Shown piece by piece: positions 43,897-54,982 of a DNA stretch of 64,000 bases; position 1 is the first letter of the stretch; every line of letters starts with the position of its first letter. Source of the stretch: Chitinophaga sp. LS1 (lineage in GTDB: Bacteria; Bacteroidota; Bacteroidia; Chitinophagales; Chitinophagaceae); assembly GCF_034274695.1 (NCBI RefSeq), contig NZ_CP128362.1:2170001-2234000 (forward strand), read 5' to 3'. The position numbers and the translations under genes are program-made. The notes under the pieces are model-generated. The model was given only the letters and a program-made list of their open reading frames with translations. It ran no database searches and had not been told where the DNA came from.

Positions 43897-45336
43897 TTAA
43901 AACTCTGCACTCTTTGGTGTTCTTGGGAAAGGAATCACGTCCCTGATATTTCCCATACCTGTTACAAACAGTACCAGTCTTTCAAAACCTAAGCCGAAAC
44001 CTGCATGCGGAGCACTACCATAGCGTCTTGTATCCAGGTACCAGCTCATTTCTTCTACTGGCAGTTTCATTTCTTCCATACGTCTTACCAGCTTGTCGTA
44101 GTTTTCTTCACGCTGAGAGCCACCTACGATTTCGCCGATACCCGGGAAGAGAATATCCATTGCTCTAACGGTTTTGCCGTCATCGTTCTGCTTCATGTAG
44201 AAAGCCTTGATAGCCGCAGGATAATCTGTGAGTATCACAGGTTTCTTAAAGTGTTTTTCTACCAGGTAACGTTCGTGCTCACTCTGCAGATCTGCACCCC
44301 ATTCTTCGATCAGGTAGTTGAACTTCTTTGATTTATTTGGCTTACTGTTTTTCAGAATGTCAATTGCTTCTGTGTAAGTGAGACGCTGGAATTCATTGTT
44401 CAGTACAAACTCCAGTTTTTCGATCAGTCCCATTTCACTTCTTTCCTGCTGTGGTTTCTGTTTTTCTTCCTCAGCAAGGCGTGCAGCCAGGAATTCCAGG
44501 TCTTCCCTGTTATTTTCCAGCACATAGCCAATTACGGATTTGATGAAAGCCTCTGCCAGGTTCATGTTGTCTTCCAGGTCATAGAAAGCCATTTCTGGTT
44601 CGATCATCCAGAACTCAGCAAGGTGGCGGGCTGTATTGGAATTCTCTGCACGGAAGGTAGGGCCAAAGGTGTAGATATCACCGAATGCCATTGCTCCCAG
44701 TTCGCCTTCCAGCTGACCAGATACGGTCAGATTGGTCGCTCTGCCAAAGAAGTCTTCTTTATAATCAATGTTACCATCTTCAGTCAGTGGTGGATTTTTA
44801 GGATCCAGGGTACTTACGTGAAACATTTCGCCGGCACCTTCAGCGTCAGATGCAGTGATGATAGGCGTGTGCAGGTATACAAAGCCTTTTTCGTTAAAGA
44901 ATTTGTGGACAGCAAAAGCCAATGCATGACGCAGGCGGAATACAGACCCGAAAGTGTTGGTGCGGAAACGCAGGTGTGCAATTTCACGCAGGTATTCCAG
45001 GCTCGGGCGGTTTTTCAGCTGCAGGGGATATTTCTCACCATCACAGTCACCCAGAATTTCCAGTTCTACAGCTTTGATCTCTACGCGCTGGCCTTTACCC
45101 AGAGATGGAATTACAGTACCTGATACGCTGATGGCAGCACCTGTGGTCAGGCGCTTGATTAGTTCAGCAGAAACAGAATTCTGATCCAATACAATCTGGA
45201 TATTATTATTGGTAGAGCCATCGTTCAAAGCTATAAACTGATTGTTACGGAAAGACCGTATCCAGCCTTTTACCACTACGTTGTAGTCTGTTTTGTCGTC
45301 AAGCAGGATTTGCTTAACCTTCGTTCTTTGGCTCAT
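43897..45336 (-). CDS. asnS: Asparagine--tRNA ligase
   Basis: 479 residues, class II synthetase. N-terminal OB fold ([22 protein letters not shown]) and catalytic core with motif 1 near [19 protein letters not shown], motif 2 [25 protein letters not shown] and motif 3 [29 protein letters not shown]. The insertion with [22 protein letters not shown] is within the normal range for Bacteroidota AsnRS. A -7-like box lies just upstream. Confidence 0.95.
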
Positions 45337-51378: not shown

Positions 51379-51569
51379 TCATTATTTAACTTCCGGGCAG
51401 CGAGCAGATCATTTCTGCGGGGTTCCGGTACTTTTTCGTAATCGTATGGGCAGTGTCTGCATCCATTGCCGCAGCAATATCCTCTTTTTAGGAGGAAAGC
51501 GGCTGTAAGTACTACATACCCATCTTCATTATAGTAAAAATCAATTCCCTCCTTCAGCTGGGGTTGCAT
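51366..51569 (-). CDS. DUF5522 family protein
   Basis: 67 residues with the conserved EGIDFYYNEDGYVVLTAAFLLKRG start and a Cys cluster GYCCGNGCRHCPYDY, probably a metal or iron-sulphur site. Its start overlaps the 3' end of trmB by 29 bases in another frame, so the two are expressed together. Small size and pairing with trmB suggest a link to RNA modification, but this is inference. Confidence 0.8.
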   Translation of the reverse strand: MQPQLKEGIDFYYNEDGYVVLTAAFLLKRGYCCGNGCRHCPYDYEKVPEPRRNDLLAARKLNNEEKG

Positions 51570-52248
51570 CAGATGGTAATTTTATAGACTTCCAGTCCAT
51601 CGGTTGTTCCGGTAGTCTGAATTTGAGATAGCGGATGGTTCTGCCGTTCTCCAGGTGCATTTTTTCGTAATACGTCTGAATTTGTAAAAGGGCAGGTACT
51701 TCACCTAAAGAATAAATATCGGGAATGTCTTCTATTAAAGTACAGCCACTATGTTCGATCACTTCCTGGGTAAAGGCGTACAGCTCCGGGGAGTCTGTTT
51801 TCAGATTGATGGTGCCACCTGGCGCCAGGAGTGGTTGATATAATTGTAAAAACTTAGGATGGGTCAGTCTTTTCTTTGATTTGGACTGACGAAGAAATGG
51901 ATCAGGGAAGGTGATCCAGATTTCACTGATTTCTCCCGGCACGAAATAATTGTTGAGCTTATCGATCTGGGTACGGAGGAAGGCGGTGTTATTGATATTC
52001 TCATCAATAGCAGTCTTGGCACCTCTCCATATGCGGTTACCTTTCAGGTCTACCCCCAGGAAGTTTCTTTCCGGGAAGCGTCTGGCGAGCCCAATAGTAT
52101 AATCTCCCTTGCCACAGGCAAGTTCCAGTGTCAGGGGATTGGTATTCTTATAGAATGACTGCCACTGGCCCGGCATGCCTTCCGGATAGATCAGTACATT
52201 CGGGAATGTCTCAATTTCGGCGAAACGTTGTAATTTTTTTTGTCCCAT
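51541..52248 (-). CDS. trmB: tRNA (guanosine(46)-N7)-methyltransferase
   Basis: 235 residues from ATG 52248; further upstream frame runs into the tRNA-like gene and its terminator. SAM-binding motif ELACGKGDYTIGLA, then NFLGVDLKGNRIWRGAK, the catalytic ITFPDPFLRQSKSKKRL (usually FPDPWxKxxHxKRR) and TDSPELYAF. It makes m7G at position 46 in the tRNA variable loop. An unusual tRNA-like gene with a giant variable arm lies 140 bases upstream on the same strand. Confidence 0.92.
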   Translation of the reverse strand: MGQKKLQRFAEIETFPNVLIYPEGMPGQWQSFYKNTNPLTLELACGKGDYTIGLARRFPERNFLGVDLKGNRIWRGAKTAIDENINNTAFLRTQIDKLNNYFVPGEISEIWITFPDPFLRQSKSKKRLTHPKFLQLYQPLLAPGGTINLKTDSPELYAFTQEVIEHSGCTLIEDIPDIYSLGEVPALLQIQTYYEKMHLENGRTIRYLKFRLPEQPMDWKSIKLPSDATPAEGGN

Positions 52249-52344
52249 TTGGGTGCAAAAATAATAGATTAACTGTATCTGCCTTCGGCAGAAGATATAA
52301 AAAGGAGTAGAAAGGCCAGCGGCTGGCTCTAAAGGGCCTAAAAA

Positions 52345-52378
52345 CAAAAAAGCTGTCCCGCGTGAACGGAACAGCTTT
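52345..52378 (-). terminator. Terminator of the tRNA-like gene
   Basis: Stem AAAGCTGT-CCG / CGG-ACAGCTTT with one mismatch and a six-base loop; on the minus strand TTTTTTGTTTTTA follows. It starts ten bases after the tRNA-like 3' end. Confidence 0.8.
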
Positions 52379-52387
52379 AAACCAAGG

Positions 52388-52530
52388 CTGTAGGGGGAGG
52401 GCTCGAACCTCCACTGGGCAGTTAGCCGCAGCACAAATAAGATTAGTGGTCAACCCATTATGCTGTGTTTATCCTGGACTCCCAACCCCCGAGACAAGAG
52501 GGCATGTCTGCCAAATTTCATCACCCCACA
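52388..52530 (-). tRNA. tRNA-like gene, apparent GUC anticodon, 73-nt variable region
   Basis: Read on the minus strand, 143 nt fold as a cloverleaf. Acceptor TGTGGGG (52530-52524) pairs with CCCTACA (52395-52389, one G-U), discriminator G at 52388, CCA not encoded. D-arm: ATG/CAT stem with GG in the loop. Anticodon arm CCCTC-TTGTCTC-GGGGG (52502-52486), which gives GUC with U33 but an unusual U37. T-arm GGAGG-TTCGAGC-CCTCC (52412-52396). Between anticodon and T arms lie 73 nt (52413-52485) that form an extended arm: TGGG-AGT/ACT-CCCA, CAGCA/TGCTG and TAGTGG/CCATTA. Ordinary long variable arms have at most about 23 nt. Leu/Ser-like D-loop and G73 hint at a serine-type or decoy tRNA. It has its own terminator. 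Confidence 0.7.
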
Positions 52531-52663
52531 ATATTTAAGAACTTCTCACTCTCTTTTTTTCAATTCCGGCCCCGTTTATTTGACGTCGGCGTTGTTTTGA
52601 ATGATTATTATGATGCAAATCTAAAGACATAACGGTTTTCTTGCAAATTTTTTAAGAAAAATT

Positions 52664-53275: not shown

Positions 53276-54196
53276 ATGGTTACAACAGAAATTACTGACA
53301 AGATCAAGCGTCTTGAAGAGAAGTATGCTGCTATGGGCCAGGACCTGTCTTCCTATCTGGATGGGCTGCTCTATGCAGATTACCTCACCTATTGGGATTA
53401 TATCCAGCTCGACGTTCTACTTAACCTTCAGCATCCCCGTACCCCCATCCCGGATGAGAACATCTTTATCATTTATCACCAGATCACTGAACTGTATTTT
53501 AAACTCGCGCTCCAGGCTATTGAGCAAATCAGCTTTGCACCAACGCTGACTGTAGCAGGCTTTCAAACACAACTCAAAAGGATCAACAATTACTTCCGTA
53601 ACCTGATCAACTCTTTTGAGATCATGGTAGATGGTATGGACAAAGATCAGTTCCTGCAGTTCCGAATGGCCCTGTTACCGGCTTCCGGCTTCCAGAGTGG
53701 CCAATTCAGGAAAATTGAGATCTGCTCCACAAACCTGGTCAACCTGGTCTATCAACCACAGCGCGCGGACCTAAAAGAAACTGAGTTGGATCAGGTACTG
53801 GAAAAGATCTACTGGCGAAGTGGGGCTACTGAATTGTCTACAGGTAAGAAAACCCTTACCCTCAGGCAGTTTGAGTTGAAATACATGAACGAGTTCCTGC
53901 AACTGGCCACTCGTTACAAGGATAATAACATACAGGCACAGTATCGCCGGTTGTCTCCGGAAGACCAGCAGGAGCTCATACCGCTGTTGAAGGAGTATGA
54001 TACGAATATCAATGTTCGCTGGCCACTCATGCACTATAAATCAGCTGTGCGCTACCTGAACCGCAAGCCGGAAGATATAGCTGCTACTGGTGGAACTAAC
54101 TGGCAGAAATACCTGCCTCCCCGCAATAAACGTATTGTTTTCTTCCCGGAATTATGGACAGAAGAAGAAATGGACAACTGGGGAAAGGAATTATAA
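53276..54196 (+). CDS. Tryptophan 2,3-dioxygenase family protein
   Basis: 306 residues, all-alpha. LSSYLDGLLYADYLTYWDYIQLD, then ENIFIIYHQITELYFKLAL with the active-site His68, GFQTQLKRINNYFRNLINSFEIM, RMALLPASGFQSGQFRKIE and the C-terminal RYLNRKPEDIAATGGTNWQKYLPP that closes over the substrate. These are the family marks of the heme enzyme that opens the tryptophan indole ring, first step of the kynurenine route. His in WPLMHYKSA near 255 is the likely heme ligand. The sequence is diverged, so the substrate should be regarded as probable only. Confidence 0.85.
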   Translation: MVTTEITDKIKRLEEKYAAMGQDLSSYLDGLLYADYLTYWDYIQLDVLLNLQHPRTPIPDENIFIIYHQITELYFKLALQAIEQISFAPTLTVAGFQTQLKRINNYFRNLINSFEIMVDGMDKDQFLQFRMALLPASGFQSGQFRKIEICSTNLVNLVYQPQRADLKETELDQVLEKIYWRSGATELSTGKKTLTLRQFELKYMNEFLQLATRYKDNNIQAQYRRLSPEDQQELIPLLKEYDTNINVRWPLMHYKSAVRYLNRKPEDIAATGGTNWQKYLPPRNKRIVFFPELWTEEEMDNWGKEL

Positions 54197-54232
54197 AAAA
54201 AGGCCGCAACTTATAATTGCGGCCTTTTTTTA
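54195..54232. terminator. Bidirectional terminator dioxygenase / SDR
   Basis: AAAAAAGGCCGCAA / TTGCGGCCTTTTTT with a seven-base loop between convergent genes. Confidence 0.92.
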
Positions 54233-54982
54233 TCGTGCGAGATAACCGCCATCCACCGGATAATAAGATCCGGTCACGAATGAAGCGGCCGGGCTGCTCA
54301 GGAACAGCACCAGTTCCGCAACTTCTTCAGGTTGACCTAACCGGCCTACAGGGTGTAAAGCTGCCAGCTGATCGATTGCTTCCTGTGTCATGTTTTTGCC
54401 TAAAAGCGGCGTATGAATGAAAGCTGGGCCTACAGCATTGACACGAATGTTTTGCTGTGCATACTCGATCGCTGCATTCTGTGTCAGACCTACTACTCCA
54501 TGTTTAGCGGCTACATAAGCAGACGACTGGGCAAAGCCTACAGCGCCCAGAATAGAAGCTATGTTCACGATTACGCCACCACCATTTTCCAGCATTGCCT
54601 GAATTTGCGATCGCATACCATAAAATACCCCATTCAGGTTCACACCAATCACTTTTTCCCATTCTGCAATGTCATACTCGCCTACCGGAGCGGGTTTGCC
54701 ACCAATTCCGGCATTGTTGCAGGCAATGTCCAGCTTGCCATAATGAGATTTGATCTGTTTAATCAGATCGTTCCACTGTTCCGCATTTCCTGCGTCTGCT
54801 TTAATAAAGATGGCATCTCCGCCATTTTTTTTGATGGTATCCACTACTTCATTTCCACCCTTTTCATTTAAATCCGAAACGACGACCTTAGCTCCTTCCC
54901 TGGCATAAACGATCGCGATTGCTTCGCCAATGCCTGATCCTGCGCCTGTTACAAGCGCAACTTTGTTGTTCAGTGCTCCCAT
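54230..54982 (-). CDS. SDR family oxidoreductase
   Basis: 250 residues from ATG 54982. TGAGSGIG cofactor motif at residues 13-20, NNAGIGG, catalytic Ser in [17 protein letters not shown] with Tyr and Lys, and the closing [11 protein letters not shown]. Typical FabG-like classical SDR of unknown substrate; NAD(H) preference is suggested by Asp in VVVSDLN after the second strand. Earlier in-frame starts add non-homologous residues. Confidence 0.88.

Follow-up and report, generated by a model that had tools for sequence, protein, structure and literature searches.

What is the task of a gene that has the arms of a tRNA, an anticodon for aspartate and, between anticodon arm and T arm, a variable region of 73 nt? 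Such a gene lies on the minus strand of the window, by which we mean the whole 64,000-nt stretch of Chitinophaga sp. LS1 DNA analysed here. An earlier note had described it as a tRNA-like cloverleaf of 143 nt (52530-52388), and when the coordinates were rechecked every arm was found where it had been placed, as was the 73-nt gap (52485-52413). We give a probability of roughly three in four to the reading that this is a non-decoding RNA, which would be charged by aspartyl-tRNA synthetase (AspRS) and amidated by GatCAB and would serve asparagine synthesis under the control of AsnC. This asparagine-carrier reading appears to be the best explanation: it fits most of the facts and passed its main test, that of GatB. 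There is good support for the family and its structure, for a probably non-decoding character and for the link to GatCAB (scored by GatB).

An RNA gene missed by gene finders

ARAGORN made no call on the window, and its calls overlapped none of the 222 extracted copies of the RNA family. No curated Rfam covariance model matched the window copy in permissive mode, and a search of the window genome with RF00005 listed 64 places, the RNA not among them. At the element in eight further loci, seven gave no Rfam match; the eighth, L296, which lacks the long variable (V) arm, matched tRNA and was the only RF00005 match among the element copies of these loci. No description of the family was found among the papers listed by searches of an open-access collection (no preprints and few subscription papers). 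The family is large and hitherto unrecognised. Our own covariance model, R1, returns the RNA as the sole match in the window (149.1 bits, E 1.3e-37), and the window genome holds a single copy.

Two other places in this genome also gave odd tRNA matches. One is a 111-nt match with an enlarged anticodon-arm region and no ARAGORN call, unlike the RNA family (G000:C1:7672862-7672972, L215), and the other a cluster of three odd low-scoring matches, possibly degenerate (G000:C1:6404651-6404880, L216).

Judged by its sequence context, the gene seems to be organised as a tRNA gene in most copies, with promoter-like and terminator-like flanks and a tRNA-style 3' end. The T arm of the window copy, with TTCGAGC, is followed by G73, C74 and a 13-pair terminator-like stem, in line with the claim of the earlier note that the gene has its own terminator (Table 1). 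The motif TAnnTTTG, which we take to be a promoter element of Bacteroidota, precedes 121 of 195 distinct copies at up to 120 nt (15.4 after shuffling), and in 74 it is joined by an upstream TTG (1.3 after shuffling); a terminator-like hairpin stands 3' of 126 of the 195, as against 8-21 in shuffled sequence. The 3' end is G73-C74 in all 110 distinct model-found copies; most native tRNA genes of the window genome likewise end in N73-C74, with CA not encoded. As base -1 is mostly a pyrimidine, we also weighed an 8-bp acceptor with -1 paired to G73; it was dropped because the native tRNA genes, inspected by eye, mostly have a pyrimidine at -1 and the same N73-C74 end.

Table 1. Features of the RNA gene and its neighbourhood, in window coordinates.
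Feature	Position	Strand	Details and support
tRNA-like RNA	52387..52530	-	nucleotide 1 = 52530, G73 = 52388, encoded C74 = 52387
Acceptor 5' strand TGTGGGG	52524..52530	-	pairs with 52395-52389; U1:A72, G2:C71, U3:A70
Acceptor 3' strand CCCTACA	52389..52395	-	support from both structure alignments
D arm, 3-bp stem, tRNA-Leu-like	52504..52521	-	stem covariation; by-eye comparison with native tRNA-Leu
Anticodon arm CCCTC-TTGTCTC-GGGGG, loop TTGTCTC	52486..52502	-	
'Anticodon' GTC	52495-52493	-	position 37 = 52492, C38 = 52491
73-nt variable region, anticodon arm to T arm	52413..52485	-	helices 4-6 in both alignments
V stem 1, 5' strand TGGG	52481..52484	-	pairs with CCCA 52418-52415
V stem 2, 5' strand CAG	52474..52476	-	pairs with CTG 52421-52419
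Internal loop GATAAA	52468..52473	-	faces CTAA 52425-52422
Apical loop GGTTGACCA	52447..52455	-	pattern GG[AGT]NGACCA
Putative Bacteroidota-type promoter	52616..52646	-	TTG 52646-52644, 20 nt, TAGATTTG 52623-52616
Putative intrinsic terminator	52341..52378	-	13-pair stem 52378-52349 and T run
Divergent AsnC-type regulator, 155 aa	52731..53198	+	Pfam AsnC ligand-binding domain
trmB-like methyltransferase gene, downstream of the RNA	51541..52248	-	Pfam Methyltransf_4, 106.9 bits
asnS (asparaginyl-tRNA synthetase)	43900..45321	-	TIGR00457, 586 bits, asparagine--tRNA ligase equivalog; G000:C1:2213900-2215321

Distribution of the family

The earlier note had proposed a check of conservation in relatives, and non-conservation was not seen: the RNA is present in 59 of 59 same-genus genomes and 193 of 298 genomes of the order (E <= 1e-15), with covarying helices. 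A BLASTN search with a 161-nt query found it in 70 of 99 genomes, namely the own genome, all 59 congeners and 10 of 39 further members of the order; the copy of [Flexibacter] sp. ATCC 35208 (L183) reads the same as that of the window. A draw across the phylum gave 42 carriers among 392 genomes, at a limit of 90 bits and with strict filters that may lose weak copies. A conserved 30-nt pattern matched at least 120 stretches in a named genome collection, where the titles among the matches listed are Bacteroidota lineages, unresolved bacterial MAGs and one Ignavibacteriales MAG, and it also matched 10 viral contigs. From all these, 222 complete copies were extracted, of which 195 are distinct, besides four incomplete hits; they measure 110-212 nt, position -1 and C74 counted in. 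The covariance model lists the family copies at 91-158 bits; the next match is L296 at 68 bits, and ordinary tRNAs reach at most 64. The model thus splits the RNA family from ordinary class II tRNAs.

Copies are not always single. Five tandem pattern hits lie about 150 nt apart in Phaeodactylibacter, and arrays of at least three copies occur in L133 (spacing about 150 nt), L044, L252, L318 and L093. Some genomes of the window's genus have diverged second copies (L036-L041) with no adjacent AsnC neighbour and a mostly changed apical loop (CTAACCA). The sequence at L296:1038-1115 is a 78-nt relative with U1:A72, G73, the loop CTATCTC (anticodon AUC) and no long V arm, and shares its genus with two long-armed carriers. 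One copy (L305:1216-1433) has a stretch of about 100 N inside the anticodon loop, from masking or an assembly gap.

Phage copies were found at LR756504.1:133312-133456 and on the IMG/VR contigs L193-L202, several of them inside tRNA arrays. A tRNA lies within 1 kb of 5 of the 10 copies from the viral collection, compared with 0 of 184 other loci in the flanking DNA analysed; in a 636-kb phage the RNA sits in a tRNA cluster, and one phage copy (L197) has G3:C70 in place of U3:A70.

Structure and covariation

The fold of the single sequence is not unusually stable (z -0.62) and is uninformative, so that the support for the structure is comparative. Across 64 diverse sequences a 35-pair structure is 94.8% paired, against 81.6% in shuffled and 47-57% in slid alignments, and 23 pairs are changed on both sides; across 112 distinct model-found rows, in an alignment fitted to the model, the values are 96.6% and 27 pairs. 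The two sets have different biases. The pattern behind the 195 distinct sequences fixed G34-U35-C36 and its flanks, so that for loop conservation we count only the model-found copies (110 distinct, with L296 and a 59-nt fragment, L299, dropped; 109 for loop counts, with one masked-loop copy left out), found by a covariance model that was itself built from pattern-selected sequences. The acceptor and T helices are biased upward in alignment A1 because extraction of the 195 scored their pairing, whereas the V-arm helices are unbiased. The anticodon stem is near-invariant in the first set because the pattern fixed it; among model-found copies four of its five pairs are changed on both sides. Acceptor pair 4:69 covaries AU/GC/GU/UA in both alignments, and the D stem covaries AU/GC/UA and UA/CG in the model-found one. 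The acceptor/T branch has 7 acceptor and 5 T pairs, not 8/4 or 9/3.

The earlier note took the V region for one long hairpin, but it has three stems: the first of 4 bp, the second of 3 bp and then, beyond an internal loop, a third that is closed by an apical loop. V stem 1 is 100% paired in both alignments with three of its four pairs changed on both sides (GAGG/CCTC, GGGG/CCCC, GGAG/CTCC and GAAG/CTTC besides TGGG/CCCA of the window), and in V stem 2 all three pairs are changed on both sides in both alignments. The internal loop recurs as GAYAAA..CTAA in 208 of 297 distinct sequences. The region ranges from about 40 to over 120 nt across the family: the apical-loop pattern occurs in 170 of 228 long versions and in 0 of 69 short ones, which retain V stems 1 and 2 and usually the internal loop. 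Since the region holds conserved, covarying structure, it is unlikely that the 73 nt are spliced out as an intron, for which no support was found. It is possible that the apical GGUNGACCA loop pairs with the anticodon GUC, or that the loops dimerise; the short versions are without a loop of this type. Two other classes of RNA were considered and set aside: a Y-RNA-like RNA, at which we took the motif GUUGACC to hint (no Rfam match), and a tmRNA-like RNA (no ORF by eye, no Rfam match).

Identity bases and decoding features

The conserved bases of the acceptor and anticodon loop are those of aspartylation and amidation. U1:A72, G2:C71, U3:A70 and G73 are each found in 110 of 110 distinct model-found copies, U35, C36 and C38 in 109 of 109, and G34 in 106 of 109. 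According to the available part of PMC9976931, G73, G34, U35, C36 and C38 are strong determinants of Asp identity, and G2:C71 and G10 add to it in E. coli, as the accessible text of PMC6523644 has it. The AspRS set G34, U35, C36, C38, G73 and G2:C71 is thus present in the family; G10 is a minority base (G10:C25 in 13 of 110 copies). The G1-C72 of AspRS substrates is not found in the RNA, where U1:A72, the first-pair signal for GatCAB, stands in all 110 copies. The same part of PMC9976931 describes G1-C72 as strictly conserved in bacterial tRNA-Asp, where it is credited with placing the acceptor end in AspRS; it also states that U1-A72 confers amidation of Asp-tRNA(Asn), which G1-C72 and U20a prevent in tRNA-Asp. 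The D loop of the RNA is long and Leu-like, and position 20a would be A, on a numbering from sequence only. The native tRNA-Asn of the window genome also begins with U1:A72.

These bases lend no support to the suggestion of the earlier note that the RNA might accept serine: they match the set read by AspRS and the signal of GatCAB. The D arm, for its part, looks like that of native tRNA-Leu. A serine-accepting allo-tRNA was rejected on the 7/5 acceptor together with the conserved Asp and GatCAB bases.

The note had also remarked that the anticodon would read Asp codons. Position 33 is T, C, A or G in 89, 11, 7 and 2 of 109 distinct model-found copies, a purine is found at 37 in only 5 of 109, and U33 and a purine at 37 occur together in 5; for 49 native tRNA calls, U33 is present in 47 and a purine at 37 in all 49. 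The U37 that had been called unusual is so indeed; 104 of the 109 copies have a pyrimidine there. Because position 33 is variable and position 37 a pyrimidine in nearly all copies, the RNA is probably not a decoding tRNA. Ordinary tRNA-Asp genes exist in the window genome.

Neighbouring genes

The divergent neighbour of the RNA gene encodes a regulator of the AsnC type. Its best NCBIfam model is AsnC (E 3.8e-46, under the model cut-off; next model 1e-17), with the Lrp model at E 2.6e-13, and the closest among solved structures is 'regulatory protein AsnC' 2cg4 (E 1.8e-32; next 5.9e-19), presumably the E. coli protein. AsnC responds to asparagine. A divergent AsnC-type gene of about 155 aa stands at 133 of 194 loci, at a distance of 117-225 nt in 130 of them: 49 of 49 in the window's genus, 78 of 118 among the named-collection matches listed (one Ignavibacteriales MAG included), 6 of 17 others and 0 of 10 in phages. 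The remaining 61 loci have no AsnC neighbour. Among 17 members of the window's family that are negative for the RNA, 12 are also without an AsnC orthologue, and three (G604, G655, G660) have the orthologue without the RNA; in G544 a contig end cuts the element, and in G596 the contig begins within its apparent first bases.

A search of the shared intergenic region for an AsnC operator palindrome gave a mean best score of 7.3 over 87 loci, against 6.2 for shuffled sequence, which is suggestive only. A tree of the AsnC proteins shows clustering of the linked label, with none of 500 shuffles as low, yet the label needs four changes, so that the linked proteins are not one clade. One row of the tree (L361), extracted wrongly, sits on an absurd branch, and we therefore rely on identities to the window protein, which are 47-82% for linked proteins and 22-30% for paralogs. 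Directly downstream of the AsnC-type gene lies a tryptophan 2,3-dioxygenase-like gene (53276-54196), and between convergent genes at 54134-54276 a strong two-sided terminator-like hairpin that draws sub-threshold Rfam leader matches on both strands.

The earlier note had pointed to trmB on the other side. This neighbour is real, but the adjacency is local (68 of 194 loci) and the AsnC-type gene is the wider one. The loci with a trmB-like gene are 47 in the window's genus and 21 among the named-collection matches listed, titled mostly Chitinophagaceae; with this limited range, trmB was rejected as a partner. Besides these two, no gene family is an immediate neighbour in more than 5 of the 194 loci, and the other neighbours differ between the loci inspected.

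Co-occurrence with GatB and the asparagine enzymes

The carrier reading was put to a test set beforehand, the presence of GatB, in 69 genomes picked before any GatB search. Of these, 33 are carriers of the RNA, taken from the 42 of the phylum-wide draw (30 in the window's class, 3 outside); 31 are non-carriers of the same class, namely 15 family members without the RNA (all of the 17 but G544 and G596) and 16 others; and 5 are non-carriers of other classes. Names of Pfam and NCBIfam models and of structures are as printed by the tools. GatB was found in all 30 carriers of the window's class and in none of its 31 non-carriers (Fisher p 4e-18). The joint difference recurs in several lineages, as contrasts within smaller groups show: 12 of 12 carriers versus 0 of 15 non-carriers in the window's family, 4 of 4 versus 0 of 3 in family f23, and, within genus g37, both RNA and GatB in G187 and neither in G604 and G660. 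Outside the class every genome sampled has GatB, 3 carriers and 5 non-carriers alike; G117, of another class, has GatB, AsnRS and GlnRS, yet no RNA. All 33 carriers sampled thus have GatB.

AsnRS was over the cut-off in 33 of 33 carriers (67 of the 69 genomes overall). GlnRS passed its cut-off in 28 of the 33, and among the same-class non-carriers in all 31. Our prediction of GlnRS in carriers therefore missed for five of the 33; in the other 28, with AsnRS and GlnRS both present, GatCAB has no evident decoding job.

We also compared the enzymes that make asparagine directly. True AsnB was defined as a two-piece match to TIGR01536 in frames of 555-594 aa; three of the 16 found were profiled and all are AsnB equivalogs, and for the one that was compared with solved structures the best match is asparagine synthetase B 1ct9, which we take to be the E. 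coli protein. True AsnB occurs in 0 of 33 carriers and in 16 of 31 same-class non-carriers, AsnA in 2 of 33 and 10 of 31, and one or the other in 2 of 33 (2 of 30 within the class) and 21 of 31. The three genomes that have AsnC without the RNA have AsnB (G604, G655) or AsnA (G660), and GatB in none. We had predicted AsnA for the 15 same-class non-carriers without true AsnB and for no carrier; this held in 5 of the 15, and AsnA is found in two of the 33 carriers. Ten members of the window's family, with no RNA, GatB, AsnA or true AsnB, would be unexplained unless they are auxotrophs. An AsnB-family protein over the TIGR01536 cut-off, mostly of a long form, is present in 28 of 33 carriers. None of three that were profiled is an AsnB equivalog: two match best, below cut-off, to an exopolysaccharide amidotransferase model and the third to the general model only; a long form could nevertheless make asparagine in carriers. 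In the window genome GatB and AsnRS are present, AsnA is absent and no protein of the AsnB family passes the cut-off; its best AsnB-like protein has a lasso-peptide cyclase as top model, below cut-off.

A model for the role of the RNA

The following scheme, each step of which we infer from sequence comparison, would connect these results. The RNA would be transcribed from its own promoter, opposite the AsnC-type regulator, which presumably senses asparagine, and would be matured as a tRNA. Because it carries G34-U35-C36, C38, G73 and G2:C71, we propose that the ordinary aspartyl-tRNA synthetase charges it with aspartate. GatCAB would then recognise U1:A72, which is missing in tRNA-Asp, and convert the aspartate to asparagine on the RNA. 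On the ribosome such an Asn-RNA would place asparagine at Asp codons; the lost U33, the lost purine 37 and the large V-arm domain would exclude it. Finally the asparagine would be released and used by asparaginyl-tRNA synthetase. We consider it probable also that the wider picture holds, in which a tRNA descendant outside translation is a reusable carrier on which Bacteroidota make asparagine, with feedback through AsnC, carried by phages as well and perhaps acting through its V arm as a scaffold for AspRS and GatCAB.

Several other explanations must be weighed against this asparagine-carrier reading. A decoding tRNA with odd features, such as an Asp or Ser isoacceptor of the allo-tRNA kind, would account for the full cloverleaf, G18G19, the T-loop and the tRNA-style 3' end, and for the phages that hold the RNA in tRNA arrays, but the four bases at position 33, the pyrimidine 37 in 104 of 109 copies, an acceptor branch of 7/5 rather than 8/4 or 9/3 and the ordinary tRNA-Asp genes make it very improbable. 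We regard as quite unlikely a regulatory RNA or decoy that binds AspRS or GatCAB, or senses charging, and regulates asparagine metabolism with AsnC and with no carrier role. The replacement of G1-C72 may weaken catalysis more than binding, and the recurrent V-arm loops resemble a protein or RNA binding site, both as a regulator would have it; against this, U1:A72 is precisely the pair that signals amidation, conservation is complete at G73-C74 and in the first acceptor pairs, and RNA and GatB are never apart in the sampled same-class genomes, although a mere regulator need not follow GatB so closely. The 'regulatory RNA evolved from tRNA' of the earlier note was thus close in spirit, but the evidence favours a metabolic carrier.

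The identity bases and the co-occurrence with GatB fit equally well with an RNA that is charged with aspartate and amidated by GatCAB, but whose Asn or Asp goes elsewhere than the free asparagine pool, for example to a peptide, a lipid or a wall precursor, much as the non-decoding tRNAs of Staphylococcus supply cell-wall synthesis. The AsnC-type linkage and the shortage of AsnA and AsnB in carriers indicate asparagine itself, all three genomes that keep AsnC without the RNA have AsnA or AsnB, and beyond the AsnC-type and trmB-like genes no family recurs next to the RNA in more than 5 of 194 loci; such a different acceptor has, in our estimate, a low probability. There is also the native tRNA-Asn: GatCAB could amidate it, given a non-discriminating AspRS, and as it too has U1:A72 a route of the Bdellovibrio type has to be reckoned with, in which the RNA would co-occur for some other reason, for example by boosting or scaffolding a transamidosome. 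The Bacteroidetes are among the clades with AsnRS, GlnRS and GatCAB and no AsnA or AsnB in the part of PMC4206432 available to us, as this would lead one to expect. The contrast of 30 of 30 versus 0 of 31 for GatB would, however, require a second explanation, and the RNA bears the anticodon that a discriminating AspRS reads; we judge this route unlikely.

Relation to known systems

The RNA shares a Leu-like D arm, a T arm and a long V arm with the class II tRNAs for leucine and serine, and G73 with tRNA-Ser. It differs from them in the size of its V region, about 40 to over 120 nt, and in the internal loop that recurs there, in U1:A72, in its Asp anticodon and in having G73 rather than the A73 of tRNA-Leu. 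A functional parallel would be the non-proteogenic tRNA-Gly of Staphylococcus, which supplies glycine for the cell wall: both would be reserved for a metabolic task instead of translation, but tRNA-Gly is of normal size and is not amidated. The nev-tRNAs of nematodes, eukaryotic RNAs that are reportedly misacylated with leucine in vitro, have in common with the RNA a V arm and a body mismatched to the anticodon. Allo-tRNAs and selC*-tRNAs are likewise odd tRNA-like genes with long V arms and an anticodon unlike the body, GUC being found among the allo-tRNAs, and several allo-tRNAs translate in E. coli, according to the accessible portion of PMC7609411; unlike them, the RNA has a 7/5 acceptor, not 8/4 or 9/3, and occurs in other phyla.

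A biochemical precedent is tRNA-dependent asparagine synthesis on tRNA-Asn. The text of PMC4206432, as far as it was available, names Deinococcus, Thermus and Bdellovibrio for this route, the last missing both asparagine synthetases, and counts 18 genera with AsnRS, GlnRS and GatCAB and no AsnA or AsnB, Bacteroidetes among their clades. As there, an RNA with U1:A72 would receive aspartate, which GatCAB would amidate, in bacteria with both AsnRS and GlnRS. The described route has a relaxed or second AspRS that mischarges the decoding tRNA-Asn, whereas here the substrate is apparently a separate RNA with an Asp anticodon.

If the asparagine-carrier reading is correct, the task of this RNA is to make an amino acid, not to decode with it, and tRNA-dependent asparagine synthesis has a second solution, in which the RNA was altered rather than the synthetase. 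It would also explain why GatCAB is kept in Bacteroidota although most of those sampled have AsnRS and GlnRS, and how some Bacteroidota without AsnA or AsnB are supplied with asparagine. Since ARAGORN and Rfam miss the gene, both genome annotation and predictions of auxotrophy would be affected.

The anticodon itself is of the Glu type in three distinct model-found copies, CUC in two from f29 (L284:1071-1187, L285:1031-1147) and UUC in one (L251:1501-1612, G413), and the two f29 genomes have no GlnRS over the cut-off. Together with the AUC of L296, this variation stays inside the Asp/Glu codon box, which may point to a glutamine-making, Glu-to-Gln version of the RNA in some lineages.
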